Source: Branchiostoma floridae | Lineage: Eukaryota; Chordata; Leptocardii; Amphioxiformes; Branchiostomatidae | Assembly: GCF_000003815.2 (NCBI RefSeq) | Contig: NC_049981.1 | Span: 16,227,646-16,291,645 of the forward strand | Reading direction: 5' to 3' | Length of the DNA stretch: 64,000 nt | In this document: piece by piece, positions 12,158-60,493 of the stretch | How the letters are laid out: every line of letters starts with the position of its first letter | How positions within the stretch are numbered: the stretch's first letter is position 1 | Program-made: the position numbers and the translations under genes | Notes under the pieces: model-generated | The model's database searches: none | The model's input: only the letters and a program-made list of their open reading frames with translations | What the model was told of the DNA's origin: nothing

Positions 12158-12828
12158 GCCCGTCCACAGCCAACACGCTTGCTTCCCTCCACTGAAATCC
12201 CGACTCACCACAATCCTCTCGGAGAACTCCAAGGACGGGAAATGACGTCAACGTTACGTCACGGATAGTCGAGATTGTTGGGACAGGCGCTTGTGAGCTT
12301 TAAGTCCGTGTTAAGAAAGACAGAAGACACCAACCAACTGGTAAGGTGATCGCAAGTTGGACTCCCCTCTTAGAATGGTGGAGTGTTCCACATTTTTATT
12401 GCATCTGCAATAATAGACACCCCTGTTTTGTTAACTTCATCACGAACTAACAGATATTCATCCCGACTGACTAATATGTCAAACGTTTAAGAGACTTGAT
12501 ATCTAAACTATGATTTTACGGACAAATACTAAACGTCTCCCCTTAGGAAAGTCAATGGATTGACCCATGCGGTTCTTCTGATCAGATTTATATGTGATTC
12601 ATTACGGAGAGTTAAGTGCCTTCCCAGCGTGCCCCGGGGCGGGGGAGGCAGGAGTACTTGCGGCACACGTGTGTGTCGGTGGGCGGCAGTCCGGGGGACC
12701 GTGACCGCCAACTCCAGGGGTTACCCTTTAAACACTCTTGTGGGCTAGGATTATTACCTCCATGAAATGTCATGGAATGGAGGTTATATTTTCTGTTATG
12801 TGTCTCTGTCTGTGTAGATGATTACTCA
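12158..12828. other. Upstream region of the thioester-protein gene
   Basis: The DNA directly 5' of the signal-peptide exon is mixed in composition, with a short GC-rich patch at 12600-12700. It presumably contains the promoter and 5'UTR of the minus-strand gene. I could not identify a TATA box or a defined start site. Short ORFs here show no family resemblance. Confidence 0.4.
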
Positions 12829-13600
12829 AGAACGGCTGGATGGATTGGTTTCATACTTGTTGTGTTGGTGGGGTGTGATGAAAGCTTGAATCGATGAGAT
12901 TTTGGGAGCCGTATCTGTCGTTATAATTGATGTAATAATATCAGAAATCACCCCTATATTTGCGTTATATTGGAACAGGCATCATGGTTTCCCTCTTTGT
13001 TAATCACCTTATCTCCAAGCAGGTGGTGAGGTGATTTGTTTCGCCAGTGATAGCCATGAACATATGTTTTTTTTTGGATCAGTTGACAACAACTGTTGGG
13101 AGGAAACGATAGCCTCGACTCAAGAACGGCTGGGTGGATTGGTTTCATACTTAGTGTGTTGGTGGAGTGTGATGATAGCTGGAAGTGATTAGATTTTGGG
13201 CCTCGTATCTGTCGATATAATCGATGTAATAATATACGAAATCACCCCTATATCTGCGATATATTGGAACAGGCATCGTGGTTTCCCTCTTTGTTAATCA
13301 CCTTATCTCCAAGCAGGTGATGAGGTGATTTGTTTCGCCAGTGATAGCCATGAACATATGTTTTTTTTATCAGTTGACAACAACTGTTGGGGGGAAAACG
13401 ATAGCCTCGACTGAAGAACGGCTGGTGGATTGATTTCATACTTGATGTGTTGGTGGGGTGTGATGATTGCTGGAAGTGATTAGATTATGGGCCCCGTATC
13501 TGTCGTTATAATCGATGTAATAATATCAGAAACCACCCCTATATCTGCGATATACAGTTGACATCGTAGAGCATCTGTTGGGGGGAACCAGGACAATTTT
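12770..13600. repeat. Tandem ~292-bp repeat, two full copies plus a partial third
   Basis: The phrase AAGAACGGCTGG recurs at 12829, 13122 and 13414, giving a period of 292-293 bp. Units share GGTTTCATACTT, GTTGGTGGGGTGTGATGA, ATCACCCCTATATCTGC and a GATAGCCATGAACATATG block. Each full unit contains TCTCCAAGCAGGTG (13012 and 13306), resembling the MITE termini found elsewhere in the window. The third copy loses its central part and runs into unrelated DNA near 13550. Minus-strand ORFs at 12954-13148 and 13248-13439 are two copies of the same repeat reading frame, not genes. Confidence 0.85.
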
Positions 13601-16888: not shown

Positions 16889-19800
16889 TTAGGGATCGAC
16901 AATTTGGTCTAGAGGCGTGAAGGAATGCTGTTCCATCTCATCGTGCTGTTGGACCTCTGGGATTAGAGAGATACCGCCCGACGCATTCATTTGTTCGTCG
17001 CGGATGTCGTCCAAATTGACGCTGCTGTACGGTTCGATATGCAGGGTGTTATCAATTGCATCCAAAGGTACGGTAAGGTAAGGTCTCAGCTCCGATTTCT
17101 GCTCAGTTTCTTTTGTTGTTACAGTGTCCTTGTTGATGCTGTTGTTAGCAGACGGTTTGTATAGGCGATTGGAAATCAGTCGAGATGTGTCGATGGTGAC
17201 CCCGTGATGTTGACGGTAGGGACCATGTCTTGCCGAATTTTCCTCAGTTTCTTTCTTTTCTTTGGCGCCTGGGTTTCCACCCGATGGAAGGATACCGTCC
17301 GATGTAAGCTTCAGGTGCAAATCTTTATCCGTTTCTTCATTACGAATGTCCTCCAAATTGACGGTGCTGTAAGGCTCGATATGCAGGGTGTTGTTGATGG
17401 CATCGAAAGGTACAGTGAGGTAAGGTGTCAGCTGTGAGTTCTCTTCAGTTTCTTCTGTTGTTTTAGTGTCCTTGTTGGCGTTGTCCAAAGCAGATCCAGA
17501 GCATTTGTACAGCCGATTAGAGATCAGTTCAGATGTGTTGATGGTGACGCTGTGTCTTGCGAAATCCTCCACAGTTTCTTCTGGCTCTTCCTTGTCGTTG
17601 ACATCCCCTGTGGCAGAGTGTTGGTACATCCGATTACTGATGAGTTGAGAACTGATGATGACGCCGTGCTGTCTGAGGACCTGATTTTGTCTTCTCCCTG
17701 AAACACGTCTCTTGTGCATTATAACCGCCACTGCCGTCCCAATTGACAGACCTATAACGGTAACAGTAAGTCCGAGAGGTATGTAAAGATAGTCAATTGA
17801 AGGTTGTTTTCCGTCAGCAAGATTCGTATCCAGTACAAGGCCAAGGGTACTGACCATGGTACCCAAAGTTGTTTTCCTCGCCAGCTGCGTCAGGGCAGAA
17901 CCTGTGGTCCCGAATGACTTTTCAGGGAGCGTAGTAGATTCTGCCATTGGAGATGTGGATGCCATTGCAGATCGGGATGCGGATGTCGGTTCTGAAGATA
18001 AGCAGAGTGACTTGGTGTGGAGCGATTTGAAGTGGTAGCCGGTCAGTTCAGGTGGGGACATGCACCGAAGATTGCCAGCAAAAACAATGTTCGAGCTAGC
18101 CAAAGTCGTGGCGTTGCAGACCAGCCATGTCATTCTACCGTCACAAACTAAGGGGTTGCCTTTGAGAAAAATGGTGAGCCGTGAGTCAACGATTATCCTC
18201 CAAGCCGTTCCCGATACCGTGCTGATTTGGTTATCCTCAAGATTAAACAGCAGGCGCGCCACAGTTGTGCAGCGACGGATCAGTGACAGAGCCTCAAAAG
18301 GTACCGCCTTCAGTTGATTGTCGTGCAAGTACATCTTCTTTAAGCTGTGGAGGCCAACGGCCGCCCTCGGAGACATTGTCTTGATGAGGTTATGATCCAG
18401 AAAGATTGTCTCCAAACTGGGCAGGCTGTAGAAGGTATGGTCATCGATATTCAGGAGGCGGCTGCACCGGATGGCTATTGACATTATGGTCGGTACGGAG
18501 GAGAAGGCACCCGCTTCTGTACAAGAAGGAACGAACGCATTACTATCTCTATGTTCTTATTGTTGCTGGTGCGCCCTTTGAATACTTATTTTATTGCACC
18601 ATGGATATTTTCAGCCAAAATTTAATGTTGCCATCAGCCATAAAGGCGTCATTTCAATATGAAATATGTTGCCGATAGTTGATTGGGTAAGTCTTACATA
18701 TGTATGAATAGATCTAGAAATTGGATACATATTTTAGATTGCTAAAATGCGTTTTCAAAACATCAGTGTTTTTAAAAATCAATGTAAAAATTTACTTTGT
18801 CTTTGGATTGTTTTGCTTGGTTACATTTGTGAGAGACTAAAATGTATGCTTTCGTACTATTTCTAAAATTACTACATACAATATGAAAAAATGTATGCTA
18901 GCATTGCTATGTTCTTTCCTCTTATTTTATCTCTGTAAACCTGATTCTACATTTTTCTTTCAACCTATCACAAGATTCTATTTCTAGCTGCCAGTTCAAA
19001 TGATTGAAAAAAATCCTCCCACGGAATCCTAATTATATTGCTTGTTTCCTACGTCTGCAAAAATCTTGTAATTTTTCTTAGTCAAAACAGTTGGCATATC
19101 CCCACACCCACCTATAGCCTGGATGGTGCTGCCGGTTATACCGAATGTGATGAGGTTGGGTAGCTGCGGGATGTGCTGTTTGGTGAGGGTGGTGAGGTTG
19201 AACAGATCATTCAGCATGATTCCAGTCACGGACTGGTCAAACCCAGTAGGTACGTCATTCAGACACGTCAGGCCATGATTTTCTGCACTGCAAACTCTGT
19301 CAGCGGTAACCTGCACGGAGAAGAAAAACAAATTCGTTGAGGACGCACAGGAAAGGTATACGTAGTGAGTAACGCCTCCGTCAAAGGGGGCTCGTCATGA
19401 CATTTACACATTATCAAATCACTCCCAACTGAAAATATTTTACAAATCTATTGACTTTTGAAGAGTTTTTGTGGGTATATATTTGCGTGTTAGGTATAGA
19501 GCTCGAGGTTCTTGAATATTGTCGGCTTGCTATGAATGAATTCTGTTTTCCGTACAAGAAGAGTGACCGTGAGGGCGCGGTCACACACGCCATACGATCG
19601 CGAAAACTAAGCTGGTCATTCTGGGGGACAGCCATGCATGTGTCGGTCCTACAAAGTTCAACTGTCGCTACAAGTGAGGATCGTTGTCGGTGGTTAGTCC
19701 TGTCACAGCCTGCTTAAATATCGCACGACGTATGTGGCCGCGCCCTGGATGATGTTGTCTTACCGTTATTCCACGTGAAACGCACGATATCCGATAACTG

Positions 19801-26342: not shown

Positions 26343-38630
<12,288 letters not shown>

Positions 38631-40909: not shown

Positions 40910-40934
40910 GGCTGGAGATACCATCTGCATAAAT

Positions 40935-41418
40935 GCAGGTAACAATAGGGCTGTGCAGGTATCACTGATATCTACCTGCACCAAACCTGCACTGGTCCAT
41001 GTACTGTGTTTATACACGCTAGTGCAGGTAAAATTGGAGCTGTGCAGGTATTCCTAATATCTAGCTGCACCTAACCTGCACTGGTCCATGTACTGTGTTT
41101 TATACTGGTTAGTGCAGGTAAAATTGGAGCTGTGCAGGTATTCCTAATATCTAGCTGCACCAAACTTGCACTGGTCCATGTACTGTGTTTTATACTGGTT
41201 AGTGCAGGTGATATTGGAGTTGTGCAGGTATTCCTAATATCTAGCTGCACCAAACTTACACTGGTCCATGTACTGTGTTTTATACTGGTTAGTGCAGGTA
41301 ATATTGGAGTTGTGCAGGTATTTCTGATGTCTACCTTCACCCAAGCTGCACCTAACCTGCACTGGTCCATGTACACTGGGTGTACACAGGTAAGTGCAGG
41401 TAAAATTTGAGGTGTGCA
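40935..41418. repeat. ~90-bp minisatellite, five copies
   Basis: ACTGGTCCATGTAC starts at 40991, 41080, 41170, 41260 and 41361 (spacings 89, 90, 90, 101). Units contain both GTGCAGGTA and its complement TACCTGCA or near forms, so each can fold. Periods of 90 bp keep reading frames open, producing spurious repetitive ORFs on both strands (for example 41071-41376 minus). Confidence 0.92.
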
Positions 41419-41986: not shown

Positions 41987-44956
41987 TTACTACGGTTCCT
42001 TTTACTGGCGAATTTTTCACACTATTTGAGCGACTTCTAACTTTACCATCCTTATCCGCATAGGAAGGCCTGACTGAGAACATAGATATTCTATATAAAG
42101 TACTTGTCACAAGCTTAAAAAGTAAATGTCTAGTTGACATGTGTAACATAAGGAGAATGTCTGCTGGGTCAATTCTTTCATTTGAACCTGGATTTTGTTT
42201 GGGGTTCATGAGATATCATATAAAAGTCTGGAAACTGAACTTCTCTCCAATTAACAGGTGGTAGCTGTACAATATCCCGTGTTAGACAATTTCTCGCTGT
42301 CGGGCGCTTATTGGCCCTCCTCGCGAGGCTAGGTTTGTGTTGTCGCCCGAGGGGTACAGTGCTTCGGCGCGCGCGACTCATTAGTTGGCAAAACATGCAC
42401 CTGGAAAATATTGTGTGTCTGACACCTAAAGTTTTCAAGTCCAGGATACACAGTACAATATCTCGTTTATAAAAGTGTTTCTTTAAACGACAAACTTCAA
42501 AAAAGTTCATCTCCGGTACGATCTGCCCACGCCCCCTTTTAATCCGGATTTATCCAGAAGTAGTTGTATTACCAGTTGGGTAACTTTTGACGCAATGCTT
42601 CGCTGCGCATCCTTCATGATAACGGGCTAAATCGTTGAATATGCCAATAGGAGTTCTAACTGATACGTTATCAAATTGAACCTATTTTACAAGCATTTCT
42701 ATCGTCTATTTCTCATCGCTACTGTGTCTGACTTAATACAAACCTTATAAAGGAGACTTGAGAAAGAAAATTGTTGATTTTTTTCCTTCCCCAACAACAG
42801 GAATGTTCAGTCCCCTGTGACGTATGCACATACGGGGACTTCAGATGACCATATATGGAAGTCGTAGAACGCTTCCCATTGGCTGTCTAAAATTGGGTCA
42901 TTATCTACCCAACTCGTGTCTCTCTATTGTTTTCGCCAATCATTCGACTCTGGACATTTTCTGTGTAAGGTGAGTTTTTCTTCTGGCTCTATGTACACGT
43001 AGTTTTTGACAATACACGGAGAGGCATTCAAAGTTTCTGCCTCACTAACTGTAGCCAAGGTGCAGTTGTGTGCGTATGTCATGCGAATAGGACACTTGTT
43101 CTGTTGTTTTGCTGTTGTGTTGTTTCCAATGAATACAAAACTTATGCTCATGATTCCTTGTGAATTTGCCGATAAACGAAGAAATCGGTAAACCAGTAAT
43201 GTAATTCAGAAATAGTTGTCAAACTCCTAGATTCTGAACACAGTGAAGTAACTTCCGTATACTAGTAGTCAAATCTTGCGAAATGCAGATTCGGGGAGGC
43301 AGATTACCATATCCCCGACCCTGTGTCCGCGGGCTCCCATACGTTTTTGTTTTCCATCCCAAGTCTTATCAAGTATAGAAAGTATTCAGGATGTAAGAAT
43401 ATTTCCGGAGAAGAAAAGACTCCATGCTTCGTGAGACACTACAACAAACTGCCGGATATTTCCTAAAAGTGCCTCCCCCAAAACTGCTTCTGGAATGCAC
43501 CACACACTGACAATCCTAGGTGTAAACCCCGCAGGCTAGATCGCTCCCTGCAAGCCAATTCTTCGACAACTCACCCGGCGACAACACCCCAAACCAAGGA
43601 GGTGGAAAGGAGATTTATTTTACCCTCCTTGCCAAAACGTATCGCTAGCCCAAAACAAGTATATGCTGACCTCGAGGTTATGGGGATGGTTTAATGTTAG
43701 AAGAAAGAGAAAAAATCATGACTCTCCCCTTCTACTGGTGAATAGCCGTTGATTTGTCTGGTTATATACTCAATTTCCTTTAGACGCCAATCACTGAACA
43801 CACAGCGATCAAAACGATTTGTTTGACCTTTCATCTAATATTTCATAACCATAATTGGAATGTGGCGCAAGGTGTTAAATCGTTACTTTATAGAAGAGAA
43901 CAAAACACATAAAATGTACACATTTTGGCTACAAAATTCGCCCAGTGATCGTTCAACTCTCAGGTCGCAGAGCGGTTGTAGTGCAGTCACAGCCGAACTT
44001 TGTGTAACCAAGTTTCATATAGTCTACGGTGTTTTCTCGCTCGGAAAGCACTCTCCTATGGGAAACTGAATTTTTTTAACCAATCACAGTTATATAGATT
44101 GTACGATTTTTTCTTCTTTTTTTCGGCATTAGTGCTCACTTCATCGCAATGACGCACTTCCAAAAACATCGACGCCATCTTCATTTTTTGACCTGGCAAA
44201 CTTATTCCAACGAAATTCATCATGACAGCTGAATAAAAGGGAAAATATAAAGTTTACAACTGTAGATTTTAGATATCGGTCTTTTGTTCACTTTATTGAG
44301 ATCGAGACATGTTTAAGAACAACAAACAATTCTAAGGGCTTGCAGTTTGAAAACCGAGTTAGTCTGGTTCTGAACAGGTACTGTATATTTTTGTAAAAGG
44401 TGTTGTTTGTGAAGCTGTCAATCATATCAAATTGTAGCATCATCAGATCTATTCTGCTCATTTGAATATTGCTCACTCCCTTCGGCCGACACATGCCCCA
44501 TACATCGTAAAGTTTTGACTAACGCAGATAACAATTTCCATTCAAATTTTCAGTCGTCCAAAATTACCGATTCGCAAGGAAGGGGGTTATGTAACCTTAT
44601 TCGAAGTCCACACCTTTCCCACGATAGGCAATCACATGTAAAAGGTCACTCAACAACAATAATGGTTCTCTGCACACAAGACTGCGTCCTCATCATTTGC
44701 ATCTTGGCGTAGGAGAAACCGGTCTATCTACATGTTGAATATGCATGAAGCTAACCTATTATGATACAGAGGTTCGTCGCTTGAAGGGAGCGAGTAATGC
44801 TTGTTATGAGCAGAATATATCTGACACGATTGACAGCTTCGCAGACAACATTCTAAAAACATGTACATGTATATGTGTAGAAAAAATGACCTCGAGTTTT
44901 CATTTTTTTTGGTACTTTTTTTTTCAGAACCACACAGAAACCTGTGAGAGGTAATC

Positions 44957-47900
44957 ATGAAGTGGTGTGTTCGTCTGCTGGCCCTGGTTGCTATGGCAAC
45001 ATTGATTGACACCTCGAATGCCGGGGTGATCAGTCGGGCAAAGCGAGAAGGTATGTGCTCATTTATTCATTGATTGATTTATTGATTCATTCATTCATTC
45101 ATTTCTATTTTTCTGACATTACTACCACTCGAGACTGTTGGTACATTAGTACTAAATTTAATCTAATCATCCCAATGTTTTTAATCCCCCAAACAGTTAG
45201 CCTGGGTGAACTACAGTCCCTACTAGAGAGGTTGGACAGTGTTGTGGGAGGTCAGTACCCCTATGTGTTAGCTTGTTATCAATTTTGCTTCACTGTTATA
45301 TTACCATGTTCTCCTTGCCAGGCCCACCGCTTGTCTATATTAAGGCATCGGATTAGCGCTTACAATCCGCCAACCAACCAGGAGCTGCCCTAGCTGTTAC
45401 TGGAGAAAAAGTTACAAGCCAATGGCGTTGCCTTTGGACCATGAGCGGCGACGCGATTGGCTAATAACTTTCCCTCCAACGACAGCAGGAGAAGAACCTG
45501 ATTGGCTGATGCATGACCAGCGCTGGCGCAACGAGAAGGAAGGATCGCAGGTCGATGTGTCAGGTCGTTGATTGACACATTCAAGCGATAGGCATGATAG
45601 GATGATTAGGCACACTGAAATGAACTTGTAATTGTTTGCTCTAGCTTGGAACAAACAGAGCGCTTCAAATGTTAGTAAAAAGAAGCCACACTCAAGAAAA
45701 ATGACTGAACTCTTTACACTACTGTAAACACAGATCAGGAAGAGAGGGGCATGGAGGAAGAAGACGACGTCGATGAGGATCTTGACGAAGATGACATGGA
45801 AGAGAGAGAAATGGGGGAGGAGGAGATAGGTTTAGATGATAATGACTATCTAGACGAAAATGATGGTCATGTATATTTGGACGAGGAAGAAATGGAAGAA
45901 CAAATGAGGGCGGACTATCTCGATGAAGATGATGAAGAAGATTTCGACGAGGATGACACTGAGGGAGAGATGGGTATGCCATAGTTTTCCTTACCCTGAC
46001 GACCTTTAACCCGTTTGCTTAGCAGTCAAGTCTTTGACTTAGTTAAAATTCCTACGCGAATGTTACATTCTGTGTAATGACCTAATCTAAATTATGAATG
46101 AAACAAGACACAGACGGATATTGGTTCTGCTTGTTATTAGAGTTTTGAGCCAAACATCGTATTCGGTACGCCAACACGGCGCCACGTTTGGACTATGCTT
46201 TCGCTTTTAGTGATGGCTATTCTAGATATTGACTTGATTTATTTTGAACACAACAGATGATGCTGAACTGGCACTGAGAGAGCTCCAGGATGAATTTAAG
46301 AAACGACGGGAAGGTAAGAACACTTTCATTATCATCATCATAATTCTTACTTAAAGAGTGGAAGCTTACACAAAAAAATTAGCTTCCAGTATCCCCCATC
46401 TCACAATGTGTCATAAACATGCGTCACAAATCTTTCCTGTCACTTGAGTAACAGTTGTATATCTTGCGTATCTTACCACCTGGATGCTTCAACTTCAACG
46501 ACCTAGAAAAGGGATAGTTTCTGTTGGGACTAACAACTCCATTATTTTGCTCTCAGAAATTCCAGTTCGAGAGTCTGTTATGTCCAGTCTCGACGAACGG
46601 CTGTCTCGCCTGATAGAACAACTGGAGGGACTGAAACAGATGAAGAGAGAACAAGAAGAGGATGTGGATGAGACCAGAGCTATGGAGAAGGAGGAGGAGA
46701 TAGAATTGGAGGAACAAGAGGAAGAGATGAGAGCTATGGAGGAGATGGAGGACATAGAGGCGGCTGAGCAGGAAGAGGAGATGCGAGCTATGGAGGAGGA
46801 GGAGGAGAAAGAAGCAGCGGAGCAGGAGGAGGAGATGAGAGCAATGGAGGAGGAGGAAGACATTGAGGCAGCGGAACAGGAGGAGGCGATGAGAGCAATG
46901 GAGGAGGAGGAGGAGAAAGAAGCTGCGGAACTGGAGGAAGAGGCCAGAGCTTTGGAAGAGGAGGAGGATATAGAAGCAGCGGAGCAGGAGAAGGAGATGA
47001 GAGCAATGGAGGAGGAGGAGGAGGTTGGTTTGGAGAAGGACCTAGAGTTGGTCGACGTGGAGGCTCAAGATGCGCAGATCGAGGAGAGGGAGATGGCCGA
47101 GCAGGGTCTTGATGCTCCAGAGCAACTGGGTAAGAGAGTTGGCGATCTTTGTGTATACATTGATATTGTTCTCCCCACAGATCGCATGGCAAAGGCTAAA
47201 AAGTAAACGACACTAGTTCTATGATGGGAGGTGATCCGGAAGCCAATATGATATAGCTAAAGCTAGATTCCTTTAAGTTTTTTTTTTCATAGACAGGAGT
47301 GATGTGATGGAAAGGTTTTGAAAACCATATAAACATGTTAAAATTCAATACCTGACTTGTAATGATGGCGAATGTTTTACGTGCAGAAAACTCTGAGACT
47401 GGTGGACTTGCCGCCCTGGCAGCCCAGCTGGAACAGTTGGAGCAGCAACTGCGTGAGACTATGGGTAAGTAGGGAGTCCGGGGATGAGGGGTAGACAATA
47501 GAACAGGAGGGGATGGACTTAGTAGGAACAGAAAATAATGCTAGTAAACCGGTACCGCTTAACAGTGTAGGAACTTTCGAGTTAGGTAAAGGGTGAGACG
47601 AAAACATTATATCTGTGTGTACAGCGCGTCTAGATCGATGCCGGTTTAGACCTTAGACCACTCTGCTGTTGCATGTGAACTTAGACAATGTGACATGGAA
47701 TGAAAATGTACCAGAGTGAACGAGGCTTCTAGAGGACTGATGATGAGTGTGACTTGGATAGATTAAGAGAGCGACTGAGAGTAAGACAGGTTGCTGGAGA
47801 CTCTGCTGAGTTTGCTAAAAAGCCCATGTACCTACATGTATCGATTCGCCGCTATGTTGTAGTCACTAAGTGACTCTTTTTAGATTTGCACTTTTCACAA

Positions 47901-48232
47901 CCGCTGTATGGACTGACAGCTTAGATTATAGTACACAGAGACACAGGTTTGACTCAAAATTTACATAGTACATGTGCATCTCTTCTGGTAATACCGTGGT
48001 AGCGTAATGCTATACGCAATAGAGATACTTATTTATCAATGTATGCCAAATTGAAGCTTCATGTGATGTTTGATGTACTGATTCTAGATGAGGACACTCC
48101 GGAGGAGGCTGGTCTGGACACTGATCTGGAGCAGGTGGGGCGGTTCCTGGAGGATCCTGTCCAAGCTCCGGAGCAACAGGTTGAAGGTAACACATCCACC
48201 CTATCATGCCAGACACACAGAGAGAGAGATAG

Positions 48233-48290
<58 letters not shown>

Positions 48291-48306
48291 GCAGAGACAG
48301 ACAGAC

Positions 48307-48339
<33 letters not shown>

Positions 48340-48793
48340 AACAGAGTGGCAGAAAGGCAGACAGAAAGAAAGAAAGACAGACAGACATAAGAAAGACAGA
48401 CTGACCGAGACAAGCAGAGAGAGAGATAGAGCGAGCGAGGACAAGAGAGCTAAGACAGCGAGAGATGAGAGAGAGAGAGAGGTGAGAAAGAGAGAGAGAG
48501 AGAAGGAGAGAGAGAGAGGTGAGAAAGAGAGAGAGAGAGAAGGAGAGAGAGGTGAGAAAGAGAGAGAGGTGAGAAAGAGAAGGAGAGAGAGATATGAGAT
48601 GAGATGAGATGAGACGGGGATAGAAAGATAGACAGAGAACGTCTGCAGAGGTACATTCAATGTCCATGTGTGATGTGCAAATATTTGTCTGCGTGTTATC
48701 ATGCCGTGACCCTGAACTTGCCTGTGATACTTCTGTCTAATTCTAGATAACAACAACTGGCAGGCCGGCGAATACCTGGAAGTGCCGAACTAA
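44957..48793 (+). CDS. Secreted, extremely acidic Glu-rich repeat protein (unrecognised)
   Basis: Eight coding exons: 44957-45050, 45197-45250, 45734-45973, 46257-46313, 46557-47129, 47387-47464, 48088-48186 and 48747-48793. The product is about 413 residues. Exon 1 gives a signal peptide (WCVRLLALVAMATLIDTSNA) followed by a dibasic AKR. Later exons encode a short helix (SLGELQSLLERLDSVV), an Asp/Glu/Tyr-rich stretch, a LRELQDEFKKRRE segment, six 18-residue Glu-rich repeats in exon 5, a helix (LAALAAQLEQLEQQLRETM) and the tail WQAGEYLEVPN. All seven introns are phase 1, so every internal exon is symmetric. Signal peptide plus acidity plus dibasic sites resembles granins or acidic matrix proteins, but there is no homology I can name. 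It is not a cytoplasmic coiled-coil gene, because the first exon is clearly a leader. The start has A at -3. Confidence 0.82.
46718..47041 (+). repeat. 54-bp in-frame repeats (18 residues) in exon 5 of the acidic gene
   Basis: Six units start at 46718, 46772, 46826, 46880, 46934 and 46988. The consensus is EEEMRAMEEEEDIEAAEQ or EEEMRAMEEEEEKEAAEQ. The two versions alternate, implying that a 36-residue (108-bp) dimer was amplified. The antisense strand reads as a Pro- or Ser-rich ORF, which is a shadow. Confidence 0.9.
48221..48612 (+). repeat. ~390-bp purine-only-like GA/GATA/GACA tract
   Basis: Intron 7 of the acidic gene holds consecutive (GA)n, (GATA)n, (GACA)n and GAGAGGTGAGAAA units, almost without pyrimidines on the plus strand except in GATA, GACA and GTGAG units. 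The antisense ORFs here (Ser/Leu repeats) are artefacts of the tract. Confidence 0.95.
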
Positions 48794-49345
48794 AATTTCC
48801 AAGGTACGATGATCACTAATTTACGACACTTATTTTGCTCATGTTTGTTGCTAACGTATCCAGCTATCTTCTGTAATTGAAAAACACTGACCCATTTTTT
48901 AATCATTTTTCTTTCAGAGTAGAGCGGCAGTGGACATAAAAGTTCCATCCATGGCCGCATACCGATGCCGGTTCTCCACAAACCGCGATAGGACGGCAAT
49001 TTAACCAACAATGCCATCGTTTTTACCTTTTTTTTAAATCTTGATATGTCAAATTTCAATATTATAATGGTGGCATTCTGGAATAAGCTATAAAGTGCTT
49101 TTATGATAGATATAAAGATCTTAACTATACGGTACTCCGTCTTGACTAAAAATCTCAATCTAATGCTGCTACTCGACTTGCGTCTTCTGTTAGAATGCAT
49201 ATATATATTCGGTATGAATCTATTTAGTCCTTTAAGTTCTGGTAGAATTGTTCTTTTGCTGAAATTTATGATAGATGGAAGAGAATTATGATGTTTCGAT
49301 TTAGTTTTACTTCATACAAGATTGCAATATCTTCGGAACTTCGGA

Positions 49346-49351
49346 AATAAA
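49346..49351 (+). terminator. Polyadenylation signal of the acidic-protein gene
   Basis: AATAAA about 550 nt past the stop codon. A possible 3'UTR intron lies between a donor after 48804 (CCAAG|GTACGA) and an acceptor ending at 48918 (TTTCTTTCAG). Confidence 0.45.
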
Positions 49352-50465
49352 TGGGTGAAAAGCGAACGTTGATGTCTTGTTTTGTTTTTGTTTGTTGTTT
49401 TCATGAGCAAAGGACAGCAACATTTATTTACAGCAGTCTAATGCATACTTCTACAGTATTTTGAAATGATGTTTAATGACTTGATTAGCAGTAGTCATGT
49501 GAAACAGTCAGCAGCCGAACGAAACGCGTTTGCAACAGGATCACAGTTTTTCCATGACAGAAGATCAGAGGCCGCACGTAAGTTCTGTTGCAGTGCCAAA
49601 TTCACTCACCAGGCGGCCCCCAATCAACATCGACCATTCCGGTTCCAAGACCTACTTACATGCCAAATATCATCACAGTACATATAGAGGTTCTCAAGTT
49701 GGAGCTCCGGACACAGATCTAGAGACATATATATATATATGCAAACAGTCGGACACAAAACAATACCTTTATTATGATTACTCACGGAGGTGCAAAATAG
49801 ACATAAAAGGTAGTGAGTTGTGACGACTTCATAATTATCCGAGTACGAGGGATGCACGAGGAGAAGTTCTCGGCTTCACCCAGTAATGATAAGCACAACT
49901 CAACTTTTGAGGCACAACTTCATAGTATGGAGCCTTTTATCAATATCCTCCAAATCACAAATCATTGGAGTCATTACTTTCCAGGCATTCGTTTCTTGCA
50001 AATCAGAAGGTAAGTGGCGAGAGAAAAGTGATGTGAATTGTGATCAGACATGTGTGGGTCGAGCTCCCCATGCCGTAAATTAACAAAAGACATTGTCAAA
50101 ATGTTTGATAATGATTCTCTTCCTATTTCAAGCAAAAAGAATTGGGTGTCTGACATCCAGCAGCGCAGTTTGACCCGCACACCTCAGGTCAGGTCAATTG
50201 TCCACGTTTTTCCCCTTACCTAACATTACTGGGTGTCGCCTGCAAAGTAATGATCACAATAATTTGAATTTTGGTACATATTTATATAAGACTTTATACT
50301 TGACATCTATGCTTCGAAATCTGAGCTGTGCTTATTATTTCTCGGTAAAGCCGAGGACGTATTGATAACCCCACATACATGTATAAAGTCTTATATAAAT
50401 GTGTACCAAAATTCAAATTATTGTGATCATTACGTTGCAGGCGACACCCTGTAACGTTAGGTAAT

Positions 50466-54683: not shown

Positions 54684-57600
54684 CTATCCGACGTAATGCT
54701 CCGGTGCGTTAGCCGACTCGTGCATGACGACCACACAGTCACAGGTAGGGCACCCGGAAGCGTCGATGCTGTGTTCTCCCTCCTGACACGGTCCGGGGCA
54801 GTCGAGGACAGGGCAGTCCAACACCGGCAGGCAGTTTGTCGTGCAGTACTCACAGCCCTCTCCGTCCGTCAGTGTCTACAGACAGGATGGCAAGGAAACG
54901 TGTTAGTCACCAAGAAGATAATGTTTTTGGCGCCAACGTTTGTAGCGTTGTTTGTGGTTTACGGTGCGGTCGCATACGTACGTATCATGCGATTTTGATG
55001 TAAATTTTCAAGAAGGCTGTGACAAAACCATACCGCCGACAAAGATAAGACAGCCTTCTCTCGTAAACAAACAGCTGACTTGTGCATGGCACGTGCAGGG
55101 CCCATCCCAAGAATGCCCTCAGTTTCTATTTCAGTTTCAAAGAGATTGTACTATTTTACACGCTGACCTCTCTTAACTATTTCACGAGTTACAGTATTTA
55201 CCTCTCTGGTATACCCGGCTGGGCACTTGGGACACTCCCTGAGGGGGCAGGGGCTCTCACACTGACAGAGGTCACAGCCGAACTCGTTCTTGGCATACAC
55301 CCCACCGGGACAGGCGTCGTTACAGTTCAGCTCATTGCACTCACACTGGCAGGTGTCACAACCGTACTGGTCCTTCATGTACCTACAGACACAGGGATAT
55401 CGATATGTACAACAGTTATAGCTGTTATTACCTTAGACAAGAGGGTTATGTTTTTGCACATTGTTTCCATATTTGCACTTTAACTGAAAATGCAATGGAT
55501 GTATTGTCATAGAATTCAGTATGTCTTGTACAAAAATACTTTTCTTTGTACTGTAACAGAACTTCTGGTTTTTACATCTCATGTTCTGGACAAGCTCTGA
55601 TCACGATTTTAAGGTGGCAGATAGGTCTTCTGCTCTAAAAGACGAGACAATGTTGCAAGTTTCGTACCTGTAGTGTTTAATTTACGGTCAAAACTGCGGA
55701 ATAAAAGCATCCAGGGGACTGAGAAAGTCTGGTCCATGTGGTCGCTGTTGACAGGATTCTTAATGCATGTAGCAATGGGGAAACGTTTCTAACTTAGGGA
55801 ACACCAAAAAAGGTGAAGAGACCTATGATAAGAACTACGATTTAGAGGGGGAGTGACAATGGCAACGACAATGATAACCTACATGTCATTGGGGCAGGGC
55901 AGACACTTGAGTTGTGGGCAGGCACAGCCGCATGTCTGACAGCCGTTCTCGTCCGAGGCGTACAGATCGCCCGGGCACCCCTCCATACAGAACACCTCGT
56001 GACACACGTGACCCAGATGCGCATGCGTATCAGTCGCTTCAGCAAGCTCCCGAGCAGGAACTGGTGGAGAAATGATCAATATGATTGGTCAATAAATGGA
56101 TGATGTACACAATATACAGAAAGTTATGAGGAAGAGGAAGATTTCGTGAAAAGTCCTACGTTTCAGGTAGCCTCCACAACCTCTCGTCAGTGACTCAGAC
56201 TGAAGACATGCTGGTTAAAATGTATGCAAAGTCTATCCAGTTGTTTGAGCACATATAACTTTTATCTGTGCTGTGTATCTTGTTAGTTGGGTGTCTAACC
56301 TCCAACGGCGTATCAATGTATAATCTAATATGTTCATTCGAACATTTCACCAACATGGTCAAATCAAGGAGGTTTTTTTTATTGAATATTTCAGCAGAGT
56401 GTATGGTTGGGGTTTTGTCTCTTTGGCATGAACAGTGTTTTTTTAAACCTCCTTGGTCAAATAGAGGAATATTTGCCCAGCTATCTTTGTGACGTTATAT
56501 GACCATGATGACGACAAACCAGGGTCAAAACGTGTGAACCTTGCAAGTGAATACTATGTAAAGGCACCAATGATTCTTGATACTTATTGGGTAACATCGA
56601 TTCTCATAATTCCACCCAGTACTCTAAGACTAAGATCATGATGTCAACCTGTGAATACTAGACTACCGGTAAGTGTATTTTAGTACAATTACCGATAGTC
56701 TAGAATTGAAATCCATGTTCATAATTAACGATAGCAGCACGTCTCATGCAAGCTATGGATTTCTATCTAAAAGGTAGATAATTGCTCGTAATAGGTTCGC
56801 GAATAATTGTTCCCATACAGTTTCGCACTGTGAAGAGCCCTGCAAATACACAGCGTACTTGTGGTGCATACTCGCATGCAAACTAGCGACTATGTTCACA
56901 ACTGTTTGACGTACATGTGCATGTATGTAGCGGTCTTGAGATTGGACTCTATAGGTTTGTATACCTTTCTGGCATGTACAAACAGAAGGTATCATTGGTT
57001 CAATCTTCAAACGCGCCGCGTGGATTATGTGTGGAGAGGGCTGTTTAAAATGTTTTGCCTACAACAGCCGTCTATTGCCGATATCAAGAAATAAAGGAGG
57101 TCTTGATAGGGTCCCTATGTGGTAAATTGCTCAGGATGCAAGGCAATTTTGTAGACACAAACAGCAAATGTTTAACGTCTGTATATTACAACAAGTCTGT
57201 CGGCTTTGTTGGATTTCTATGGAAAAGGTCCGGAACGTGGGACCCCGCCTCATTAATAAACTCATAGTTGACATATTGTTCTTGAATATTTCAGCAGAGT
57301 GTGTGGTTTGGGTTTCGTCTCTATGGCATGAACAGTGCTGTAAGATCTACCTAATACTAGATCATTACATCATTGCTACATCACTGAGGACGTGATTATT
57401 CGATAAACCAGACCATTTCTGGATAAGACAACGCCTGACGACGAAAGTGTTCACAGCTTAAAGGAAAATGGGTCTTGGCTCGCCCATAGAAGGCGTTCAA
57501 AGCTGCTTATCTCCAGGCAGTCAAACCTGCATTAGTGACCACCTTTGTATAGTCACCACCTGGCCATTGCGGTCACTTTTTATAGGTCCCTTGGATTTTA

Positions 57601-60493
57601 CCAGACCTAAGCATTAAGAAATGGTCTATAGCAGCCACTTGTCCAACGCGGCCACGGACACACGATTTCCGGTCCCGTAGATACAGAAACACTGCCTATT
57701 GCTACCATACAGCGGCCGTATGTCACCCTGCGCCGAGTTAAAAATCGAAGTTTGCCAGGGTTTGGAGTCATTTTAGCGGTAGGACTTGCCTTGAACGTTA
57801 GATAGCAACAACGCAAGTCTTTGTAAGCATATTTACCAACATTGCGCATGGCAGTATTAATCATTTTCTGTAAATTTGACTTTGGCAGGGTCAGCTGAAT
57901 TTTGAGACGATCGAGACAATACTCATTGCCTTGGTGAGAAAGATTAGTGGGTACTGAAGTCATGTATAACTTATTGCCTTTGGTCAATTGATCAGCATTT
58001 TCTCTATAGTGGCCATATGTCTGTCCCTGGCGTGGCCGCTATAAACAGGTTTAACTGTATCTTTATTGGCGTGGTCCTAGGCCTACGGAAACAGAGATAG
58101 GCGCGACACTATACAGCATACAATGTGGAAATTGCAACGTCGGCTTGGTGTACCGCAAAGATGTTCATAAGTTTATATTCTTTCTGATTTTTCAACTTTG
58201 CGATATACTTCTGTCCTTCGGAAGGTCTTATTTTGTTTTAATTACGGAGCTTGGTCCGAGTAAAAATGAAAAAAAATAGTTTTACGACATCGCCCAATTC
58301 ATAATACATATTCCCCGGGAATTGTGTCATCCGCGCCTTTCTTACAATGACTCACACTCCGGAGTTTTACAATGACAGGATTTTCCCACGAACACTCCCC
58401 AGAAATTTCGGTCCAGGGATAGGAGTAGCCTGGAACAGTTGGCCACGTAGATTGACTTTAAGCAAAATGGGACTTCCCCGAGTTCGATTGTTATTCTATT
58501 TTTATTCAGCTTTACCACATTTGTGGGATCCCGGGAGGATTGACATAACAGGTGACAATCGCCGTTGCAAGATGTCAACCCGGAGACCAGACTGTAAGGT
58601 TTGATCTACTCACACCGGGAAGGACCCTTACTCCTTTTGATAAGAGCGTTGGGTTCTTTAACGTACGTGGGTGTGGCTCTCCCCATGTAACGTGCTATTC
58701 GAGGGATAGGACGTAAACATTTCAAAATTTTAAAAATATATAGTTTGCTGGTGCATACGACTTTTAAACACTAGTAGGCAACATTGGCAACTAGTTCCAA
58801 TCACAGATGATCGCTCACATTTAACACCAACCAAGGCCTAGAAAAGGTCGGAAGGTTATGCTCAACTGACCTTGAGTAATATTCTTGTTTACAAAGCGTG
58901 ACAAAAGTCCAAGATATTTGGTCAAGCATCATTAGGTTTTGTACAGGAAAACTATATACAATGTATATAGCGCTAACGTGGCAATCGCTCTACGGTACAA
59001 CACATCAGCTTCACATGCGCGCTTTTCAGTTAGTTCCAGTCACCCAGTGACATCAGACGGCCTGTCACACCTATCATTAGAACATTTAAGAGGTCCAAAG
59101 TGATCTTAAGCACCAATATTTGTCGTTAATGCACTCTCAAATATTCTTTCAACACTTTGGTCAACACCAGAATAAAGGAACAAACTGTTCCAGGTACTGT
59201 ACTCACTCCCACATCTCTCCATACACTCTCCCCAGGTGTTGAACCTGTTGGAGTTCCCCCCGCAGCCGCCGTACGGAAAACCTTCACATTTCTGCTTATC
59301 GGTGTTGAAGTAAAACGCCTGTTTGTAGTTGTCGCAGGGGCCCGACTCCTTAGGCAGGCTGCAAAAGCCTGTAGAATGGAAATGACCATGTACGAAGGTT
59401 ATGCGAGGGTAACAGTTCGTTACCGGCACTAGGCTTGGGAATTTGCGCCAACGAAAAGTATGATAAGCAAGACCGAACACACAACACACACACACCACAC
59501 AGAACATTGAAATACCAGTCATTAGCATTATTTGTGTATATTTCTTGATATACCCCAGGTTTTCCCATGGGACAGAACAGGGACGATTGATCTGTGACCT
59601 GAGGTGTGGGGTCAACTCCAGCGTGCTCTCTGCCCTGCCCTAAGCACAACCAGACACTTCAAGGATAGTCCCCGTCAAATATTCTCTTTACAGTTCATGG
59701 CACCGGGCGCACAAGAGAAGAACTAGCTCTGAACACAGCCCGGACTTCCTTCTTTGTCATGCCTCATGCTTATAAATGCCCAACCTTAATTTCATCACCA
59801 TGAAAAATGGAGATATAGTTTTGAGTGTGTCTGTCTGTTTGTCTGTCTGTCTGCCTGTCTGTCTGTCTGTTTGTGTTTCCGGATGTTTGTAGTCAGCATA
59901 ACTCAAGAACCTCTGGATGGATTACGATGATATTTGGTATGTGGGTGGGTGTTGGAAAGATGAAGGTCAAGGTCAATTTTGGATCCCCTGGTATGTGACA
60001 TTGGTACTGCAGCAGAAATTCCATCTCTTTGTATTTTTTGACCTGGATGTGCTATGGTCTGGTTTCAACATGTTTTGTGCCGTTATAAAGAGCAAGGCTT
60101 TAAGATTGATACAATTACTCTAGTGTAATTTCGCTGAACTAACGCTTCTTTATTCGTCCAATATTTAGTTTCTTTTCTTGGATGTAGCTTTTGCGTACGC
60201 CTGTCAAAAATTTTAAAAAGATGCAGATGTAGAAAAGCCTTAGTTTATAATCTCTGCTTCCTCTCAGCTAGTCTTAAATTTCAGTGGGTCTGGATCCAGC
60301 TTGATGTTTTTTTCTGAAGAAGAGATACTGTTTCAATAGTGTTCATATAGCCTGTAATCTATGGATCTTGTTACGTCTTGGTGCGTTAGTAACAAAAAAA
60401 AGTAAAGATAAATGAATATAACTTACTTGCGAGGAGTGCCGAGCTCCCTGCCAGATGACAGACGACGAAAACGACCACGGCTGAGGCCTTCAT
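54684..60493 (-). CDS. Secreted Kunitz plus antistasin-like protease inhibitor
   Basis: Five exons with consistent phases: 60493-60427 (signal peptide, MKASAVVVFVVCHLAGSSAL), 59368-59207 (one Kunitz domain), 56060-55883, 55382-55202 and 54875-54684. The product is about 259 residues. The Kunitz domain has all six cysteines at canonical spacing (residues 25, 34, 50, 58, 71, 75) and the FPYGGCGGNSNRF core. The remainder is cysteine-rich, with about five antistasin-like modules, such as CPGDLYASDENGCQTCGC, MKDQYGCDTCQC, CPGGVYAKNEFGCDLCQC and EHSIDASGCPTCDC. It probably inhibits extracellular serine proteases. The Kunitz P1 position (residue 35, after the second Cys) is Asp, not Lys or Arg. The start is the only ATG leading into a leader, 67 nt before a consensus donor (GTAAGT). 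Confidence 0.93.
56363..56456. repeat. Inverted pair CAAGGAGGTT ... AACCTCCTTG with a duplicated interior
   Basis: TCAAGGAGGTTTTTTTTA near 56363-56381 and TTTTTTAAACCTCCTTGGTC near 56438-56457 are inverted copies. The interior TTGAATATTTCAGCAGAGTG...GGCATGAACAGTG (about 56383-56437) recurs at 57282-57336 without the flanking arms. Both lie in an intron of the Kunitz/antistasin gene. Confidence 0.8.
57519..58060. mobile_element. Non-autonomous pogo/Tigger-like DNA transposon
   Basis: The left end CAGTCAAACCTGCATTAGTG is followed by ACCACC; the right end is the complement of CAGTTAAACCTGTTTATAGC then GGCCACGCC. Internal (A/T)AGC(G/A)GCCAC phrases near both ends (57630, 57710, 58010, 58035) are typical of pogo-like terminal regions. 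The interior ORF (57607-57987 minus) does not resemble a transposase. Confidence 0.65.
58500..58720 (+). repeat. Dispersed repeat, copy 2 (see 28190-28440)
   Basis: It contains CCACATTTGTGGGATCC, GGAGGATTGACATAAC, AAGATGTCAACCCGGA, CCAGACTGTAAGG, TGATCTACTCACACCGGG and GGGTGTGGCTCTCCCC. These phrases are collinear with the copy in DCTN6 intron 2 but better preserved. Confidence 0.65.
59820..60000 (+). repeat. (GTCT)n plus GGATGGATT...TTTGGTATGTGGGT element
   Basis: A (GTCT)n run (59827-59873) precedes AACTCAAGAACCTCTGGATG, GATGATATTTGGTATGTGGG and AAGGTCAAGGTCAA. Related pieces appear at 12780-12860 (CTGTCTGTG, AACGGCTGGATGGATTGG) and, inverted, at 34320 and 34786. It is therefore a dispersed family, here in intron 1 of the inhibitor gene. 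Confidence 0.75.

Follow-up and report, generated by a model that had tools for sequence, protein, structure and literature searches.

An all-phase-1, eight-exon gene of Branchiostoma floridae encodes a strongly acidic, putatively secreted protein with granin-like features

Introduction

The closest described counterparts of the protein reported here are the granins, which to our knowledge are known from vertebrates only. Chromogranins A and B and secretogranin II combine a leader peptide, high acidity, basic cleavage sites and tyrosines in acidic sites with short helices set between acidic stretches; among granins, an N-terminal disulfide loop is found in chromogranins A and B only. Other secreted, acidic proteins encoded by small modular exons are the secretory calcium-binding phosphoproteins (SCPP), whose genes have introns of phase 0 only, and acidic repeats also form single α-helix rods, which usually balance Glu with Lys/Arg. 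PMC5642266 quotes a content of 19.4% acidic residues, assigns 8–9 dibasic sites and a cysteine-free mature chain to secretogranin II and proposes a fruit-fly granin on the basis of composition and loose correspondences.

We have analysed a stretch of 64,000 nucleotides from B. floridae (RefSeq assembly GCF_000003815.2, contig NC_049981.1, positions 16,227,646–16,291,645, forward strand), referred to here as the window, to which coordinates refer unless stated otherwise. A preliminary description, made from the sequence alone, had reported an unrecognised secreted poly-acidic protein in it, built from phase 1 exons. The gene product shares with chromogranins A and B and secretogranin II the high acidity and resembles them in its putative leader peptide, candidate basic cleavage sites, tyrosines in acidic sites and possible short helices between acidic stretches; with secretogranin II it also shares the cysteine-free mature chain. 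It shares with SCPP genes the modular small exons and acidity but differs in intron phase, and it resembles the single α-helix rods in that its largest exon is modelled as one long helix but differs from them in the scarcity of basic residues. It thus resembles a known kind of protein, the acidic secretory scaffold, yet lies outside the families tested. Among the literature matches listed, we found no amphioxus granin and recognised no paper on this gene, which offers a concrete candidate for asking whether granule packing in a non-vertebrate chordate relies on an acidic scaffold, and whether acidic granule proteins share ancestry or have arisen repeatedly by design.

Gene structure

Eight coding exons (Table 1) are joined across seven introns, all of which are GT–AG and all of which are phase 1, so that the exon chain and intron phases of the preliminary description are upheld. 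The reading frame opens with the ATG at 44957, the last base of its TAA stop codon is 48793 and the product has 413 residues. A T-rich tract followed by CAG (44916–44927) resembles a 3′ splice site by eye, and an upstream non-coding first exon is therefore likely.

Table 1. Features of the gene (window coordinates)
Feature	Coordinates	Strand	Description
5′ UTR end	44928–44956	+	Read from the sequence by eye
Exon 1	44957–45050	+	Putative leader peptide, short propeptide and RAKR site, the end of which is residue 30
Exon 2	45197–45250	+	VSLGELQSLLERLDSVVG; possible helix
Exon 3	45734–45973	+	80 residues, 59% Asp/Glu; three of the four tyrosines of the protein, each in YLDE
Exon 4	46257–46313	+	DDAELALRELQDEFKKRRE; amphipathic helix with KKRR cluster (residues 144–147) at the end
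Exon 5	46557–47129	+	Amphipathic segment, then KR site (residues 178–179), then acidic 18-residue array; 45% acidic
Exon 6	47387–47464	+	ENSETGGLAALAAQLEQLEQQLRETM; likeness to chromogranin A C-terminal motif, as a lead only
Exon 7	48088–48186	+	Acidic linker including amphipathic stretch
Exon 8	48747–48793	+	NNNWQAGEYLEVPN and stop codon; fourth YL[DE]
Probable 3′ UTR intron	48804–48917	+	GT...AG by eye
AATAAA	49346–49351	+	Sole AATAAA or ATTAAA within 48790–50000

A strict splice scan recovered one of the six internal exons (exon 5), which indicates that several acceptors have weak pyrimidine tracts. With the criteria relaxed after the fact until the gene's own sites passed, and the controls treated equally, all six internal exons appeared as open, symmetric phase 1 candidates among 26 symmetric candidates at the locus. 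The controls for this relaxed scan, 15 other 3.7 kb blocks of the window, gave 305 candidates; only two of these were at least 25% acidic, and the highest acidic content among candidates of at least 60 residues was 23%. By this comparison the exon chain is beyond chance. A scan of the introns for additional acidic symmetric exons gave a single weak candidate (47733–47780, 16 residues), which does not fit the phase 1 series because it is of phase 0. Phase 1 symmetry is common among secreted and extracellular proteins, and it is for this reason less telling than the preliminary description implied.

Composition, motifs and repeat array

Glu makes up 29.5% of the protein and Asp 10.4% (together 40%), with a pI of 4.05 and a calculated net charge of about −130, in keeping both with the poly-acidic character first reported and with that of the granins. 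The hydrophobic leader, read by eye, follows the classic pattern of a signal peptide with cleavage after A22 and supports the proposal that the protein is secreted. The dibasic site noted at the outset is one of three basic clusters: RAKR (residues 27–30), KKRR (144–147) and KR (178–179). The sole cysteine is residue 4, within the leader, leaving the mature chain cysteine-free, and the protein contains no N-glycosylation sequon, SG glycosaminoglycan site or C-terminal Gly-basic amidation site.

All four tyrosines (residues 88, 97, 111 and 408) lie within YL[DE], three of them as YLDE. When the mature chain was shuffled 20000 times, four YL[DE] or three YLDE never arose, a result that is descriptive since the motif was picked after the sequence had been viewed. 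Acidic YLDE is a good context for tyrosine sulfation, and these tyrosines are candidate sulfation sites.

The 18-residue array of the preliminary description is present as a 54 bp tandem repeat (46676–47023, 6.4 copies, 79% matches), its unit corresponding in length to five turns of α-helix. Amphipathicity, measured as hydrophobic moment, exceeded that of shuffled sequences for exon 4 (fraction 0.011), the start of exon 5 (0.0285) and exon 7 (0.028), but not significantly for exon 2 (0.185) or exon 6 (0.134), and the repeat unit was likewise not above its shuffles. A single-sequence AlphaFold model of exon 5 predicts one helix over residues 3–184 of 190 (mean pLDDT 89.8, pTM 0.40); AlphaFold without an alignment tends towards helices for such repeats. 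Given the scarcity of basic residues, this predicted helix is doubtful as a free structure at neutral pH. The alternation of helical and acidic exons proposed earlier is too neat, since the two kinds of sequence are mixed within exon 5, which is predicted to form one helix.

Comparison with known families

No match above cut-off was found in Pfam for the protein or its pieces, no family match in NCBIfam for the protein, and none above cut-off in a sequence search of solved structures (best E values 0.2 and 0.45), in agreement with the initial statement that no family could be named. Weak hits to Sec10_N (0.055), DUF4404 (0.014), EAD9 (0.014), the H-NS N-terminus (0.007) and DASH_Hsk3 were all under the curated cut-offs and were rejected as effects of helical or acidic sequence content.

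The preliminary description had named a confident HMM match to a known family such as the granins as one finding that would speak against it. The Granin profile (PF01271) gave no match at E ≤ 10 to the whole protein or to pieces, including those from exons 2, 5 and 6. Human sequences used as positive controls did match it in the same test, the C-terminus of chromogranin A (44 residues) at 3.9e-15 and secretoneurin (33 residues) at 2e-7, which makes the silence a meaningful negative. A genome-wide search with this profile also gave nothing, but says little, as none of 14 control genomes matched either. The C-terminal granin signature [DE][SN]L[SAN]xx[DE]xEL is absent from the protein, and with a single cysteine located in the leader an N-terminal disulfide loop is impossible. 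The protein further departs from the granins in its tandem array, in having two more exons beyond the motif-like exon 6, and in having fewer basic sites and twice the acidic content when set against the figures quoted in PMC5642266. By these tests it is not a member of the granin family. In the same genome, one borderline match to Secretogranin_V/7B2 (E = 0.004, 24.5 bits) hints that machinery for regulated secretion is present.

A marginal likeness links exon 6 to the C-terminus of human chromogranin A (ungapped score 44 over 23 residues). This score was reached by 3/1500 shuffles that kept the hydrophobic pattern, equivalent to about 0.05 after correction for the 24 exon–reference pairs tried, and by 0/1500 free shuffles; the best score among 520 coiled-coil or acidic control windows was 31. 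BLASTP gave no alignment between the two at E ≤ 100. Exon 2 scored 30 against secretoneurin, a value reached by 94/1500 pattern-keeping and 3/1500 free shuffles (best of the 520 windows, 27). We regard the exon 6 likeness as a lead and not as a sign of membership.

A partial duplicate and its divergence

When exon 1 was searched against the genome (431 contigs, 513,431,437 bases in total), a single further locus emerged, C3:7023411–7023504, which is 94% identical (88/94) and lies about 9 Mb from the gene on the same contig, C3. The duplicate region (14.8 kb, covered by segments L003 and L004) contains exons 1, 2 and 4, part of exon 5 and the sequence upstream of exon 1; exons 3, 6, 7 and 8 had no match there. 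Identity is 52/54 for the upstream block 44901–44956, 48/54 for exon 2 and 54/57 for exon 4. Exons 1, 2 and 4, together with the first 104 bases of exon 5, align over 309 bases without a single gap column. The remainder of exon 5 contains two gaps (18 residues and one residue), both of which preserve the frame, and the array copy number differs by one in-frame unit. Such frame-keeping provides independent support for the gene model. The RAKR, KKRR and KR sites are also present in the duplicate, and the 30-residue peptide 148–177 differs at 4/30 positions.

In the duplicate, read by eye, an insertion has shifted the acceptor side of exon 2, and the donor of this exon is lost. The insertion, of about 3.2 kb (L004:115–3436), lies directly before the exon and supplies a new AG adjoining it. 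Although the exon 2 donor is gone and no exon 3 is found there, exons 1, 4 and 5 would, by eye, still join in frame, as the modularity suggested in the preliminary description would lead one to expect. An all-symmetric-exon gene with one partial copy in which modules have been lost or scrambled makes a clean case of its kind.

The exon 5 frame of the duplicate stays open for 303 codons in total and runs into a CHMP1-like stretch (Snf7 domain, 2e-11; human CHMP1B residues 2–166 of 199, 6.6e-63). This array–CHMP1 reading frame, at L004:4315–5225 (C3, about 7.0277–7.0286 Mb), has the appearance of an accidental gene fusion next to a copy of CHMP1; a stop truncates the CHMP1B-like sequence, the rest of which seems to resume downstream in another frame. 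Open sequence resembling, by eye, the reverse transcriptase of a non-LTR retrotransposon is found at L004:7500–9000.

A genome search with the whole protein (E ≤ 10) scored 101 of 355 candidates and gave, as a lower bound, 22 matches: six to this gene, two to the duplicate and 14 to the acidic array only, the last with 15–46% identity and a best E of 1.9e-4 among the matches listed. Beyond such array-only matches, one partial duplicate was found among the candidates scored.

Over 193 codons, the gene and its duplicate differ by 26.5 nonsynonymous changes in 460 sites and 8.5 synonymous changes in 119 sites (pN 0.058, pS 0.071). Protein-level divergence thus looks nearly neutral, and the comparison carries no sign of strong constraint. 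An initial count, limited to exons 1, 2 and 4 and the beginning of exon 5, gave 22 changes in 309 bases, compared with 16 in 531 bases of intron (Fisher p = 0.009). This suggested fast-evolving exons, but the count had omitted the first part of intron 2, with 11 changes in 106 bases. Positive selection on the exons was rejected: with the rest of exon 5 included, nonsynonymous changes against introns gave p = 0.057, alongside the pN and pS given above.

Functional implications

From the design of the protein we propose, with a probability of roughly 0.45, that it most likely acts in the secretory pathway as a polyanion resembling the granins and restricted to its lineage. The leader would direct the chain into the ER, and a furin/PC-type enzyme would trim the short propeptide at RAKR. 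Further cuts may occur at KKRR and KR, yielding an acidic N-terminal piece, the 30-residue amphipathic peptide and a long acidic C-terminal piece, and three to four of the tyrosines, in their acidic YL[DE] context, would probably be sulfated. Either inside an acidic granule rich in calcium or once the protein has been secreted, repulsion between its charges would be reduced by protonation or by Ca2+, and the acidic rod would then be able to fold and condense and so to pack cations, amines or basic cargo. The eight-exon anatomy, the acidic composition, the cleavage motifs and their retention in the duplicate, the cysteine-free mature chain, the YL[DE] context, the 54 bp array, the exon 5 helix model, the amphipathicity of exons 4, 5 and 7 and the borderline 7B2 match are all consistent with such a role. 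Against it stand the lack of a match to granins or any other family, the near-neutral divergence of the two copies, the lack of a C-terminal amidation site, and, relative to the values quoted in PMC5642266, the small number of basic clusters and an acidic content far above 19.4%.

Two other readings fit nearly as well. One is a constitutively secreted acidic protein, located in the matrix or in body fluids (mucus, notochord sheath, endostyle or pharynx) and serving outside the cell to bind calcium or basic proteins; we regard this tentative alternative as rather doubtful. Its dibasic sites would be incidental, the furin-type RAKR excepted, and RAKR suits furin and the constitutive pathway; the restriction of basic clusters to three, the variation of the array by one in-frame unit between copies, as in structural repeat proteins, and the all-phase-1 exons typical of extracellular genes also agree with it, but the mature part has no N-glycosylation sequon, SG site or cysteine, and the Pfam search revealed no matrix domain. 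Alternatively, the product could be EEIPVRESVMSSLDERLSRLIEQLEGLKQM, the 30-residue peptide bounded by KKRR and KR, released from a hormone precursor in which the acidic parts serve as spacers. Basic clusters flank this peptide in both copies and its amphipathicity is matched by 0.0285 of shuffles; the absence of an amidation signal, of repeated peptide units at cleavage sites and of a Pfam match to the peptide piece, together with the four differences in the duplicate, speaks against this reading, which we hold to be unlikely.

That the protein is a true but highly diverged chromogranin, with exon 6 as the C-terminal chromogranin motif and granins predating the vertebrates, appears more improbable still. 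The scores of exon 6 and, less markedly, exon 2 above their best control windows hint in this direction, as do the shuffle counts for exon 6 before the correction that brings them to about 0.05, but the Granin profile is silent where human control pieces match, BLASTP finds no alignment, the signature is missing and the disulfide loop is impossible. The same low standing is given to the idea of a cephalochordate counterpart of the chromogranins, an all-symmetric phase 1 modular gene in which a single small exon would carry an early form of the helix at the chromogranin C-terminus; were it true, granule polyanions would predate the vertebrates and would have arisen by symmetric-exon shuffling. 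Least probable is that the locus is a decaying or recently formed sequence and no functional protein gene. Near-neutral pN and pS and the finding of no relative beyond the duplicate among the 101 of 355 genome candidates scored would suit this, but the eight exons stay in frame with their splice sites intact, the array is open and the 15 control blocks lack comparable acidic coding potential, all of which argues for a gene; the duplicate's own decay (exon 2 donor lost, exons missing) could alone raise pN.

Other features of the window

Rfam gave no matches over the window and ARAGORN no tRNAs. Intron 7 is mostly filled by a long GA-rich simple repeat (48219–48614), and a high-copy repeat of about 600 bp lies directly downstream of the gene (49864–50464); at first look the latter had 2597 candidates in the genome, and 38 of the 40 scored were copies with 90–93% identity. 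Elsewhere in the window are a single-exon sulfotransferase gene (30478–31389, + strand; Sulfotransfer_1, 7.8e-58) and an exon of a leucine-rich-repeat protein with an apparent transmembrane stretch (16889–18556, − strand; LRR_8, 1.3e-17). Exons with antistasin-like (5.3e-4, just below cut-off) and Kunitz (1.4e-16) protease-inhibitor domains at 55151–59639 (− strand) possibly belong to one gene. Two further tandem arrays consist of 294 bp units (12824–13554, 2.5 copies) and 90 bp units (40934–41351, 4.7 copies).
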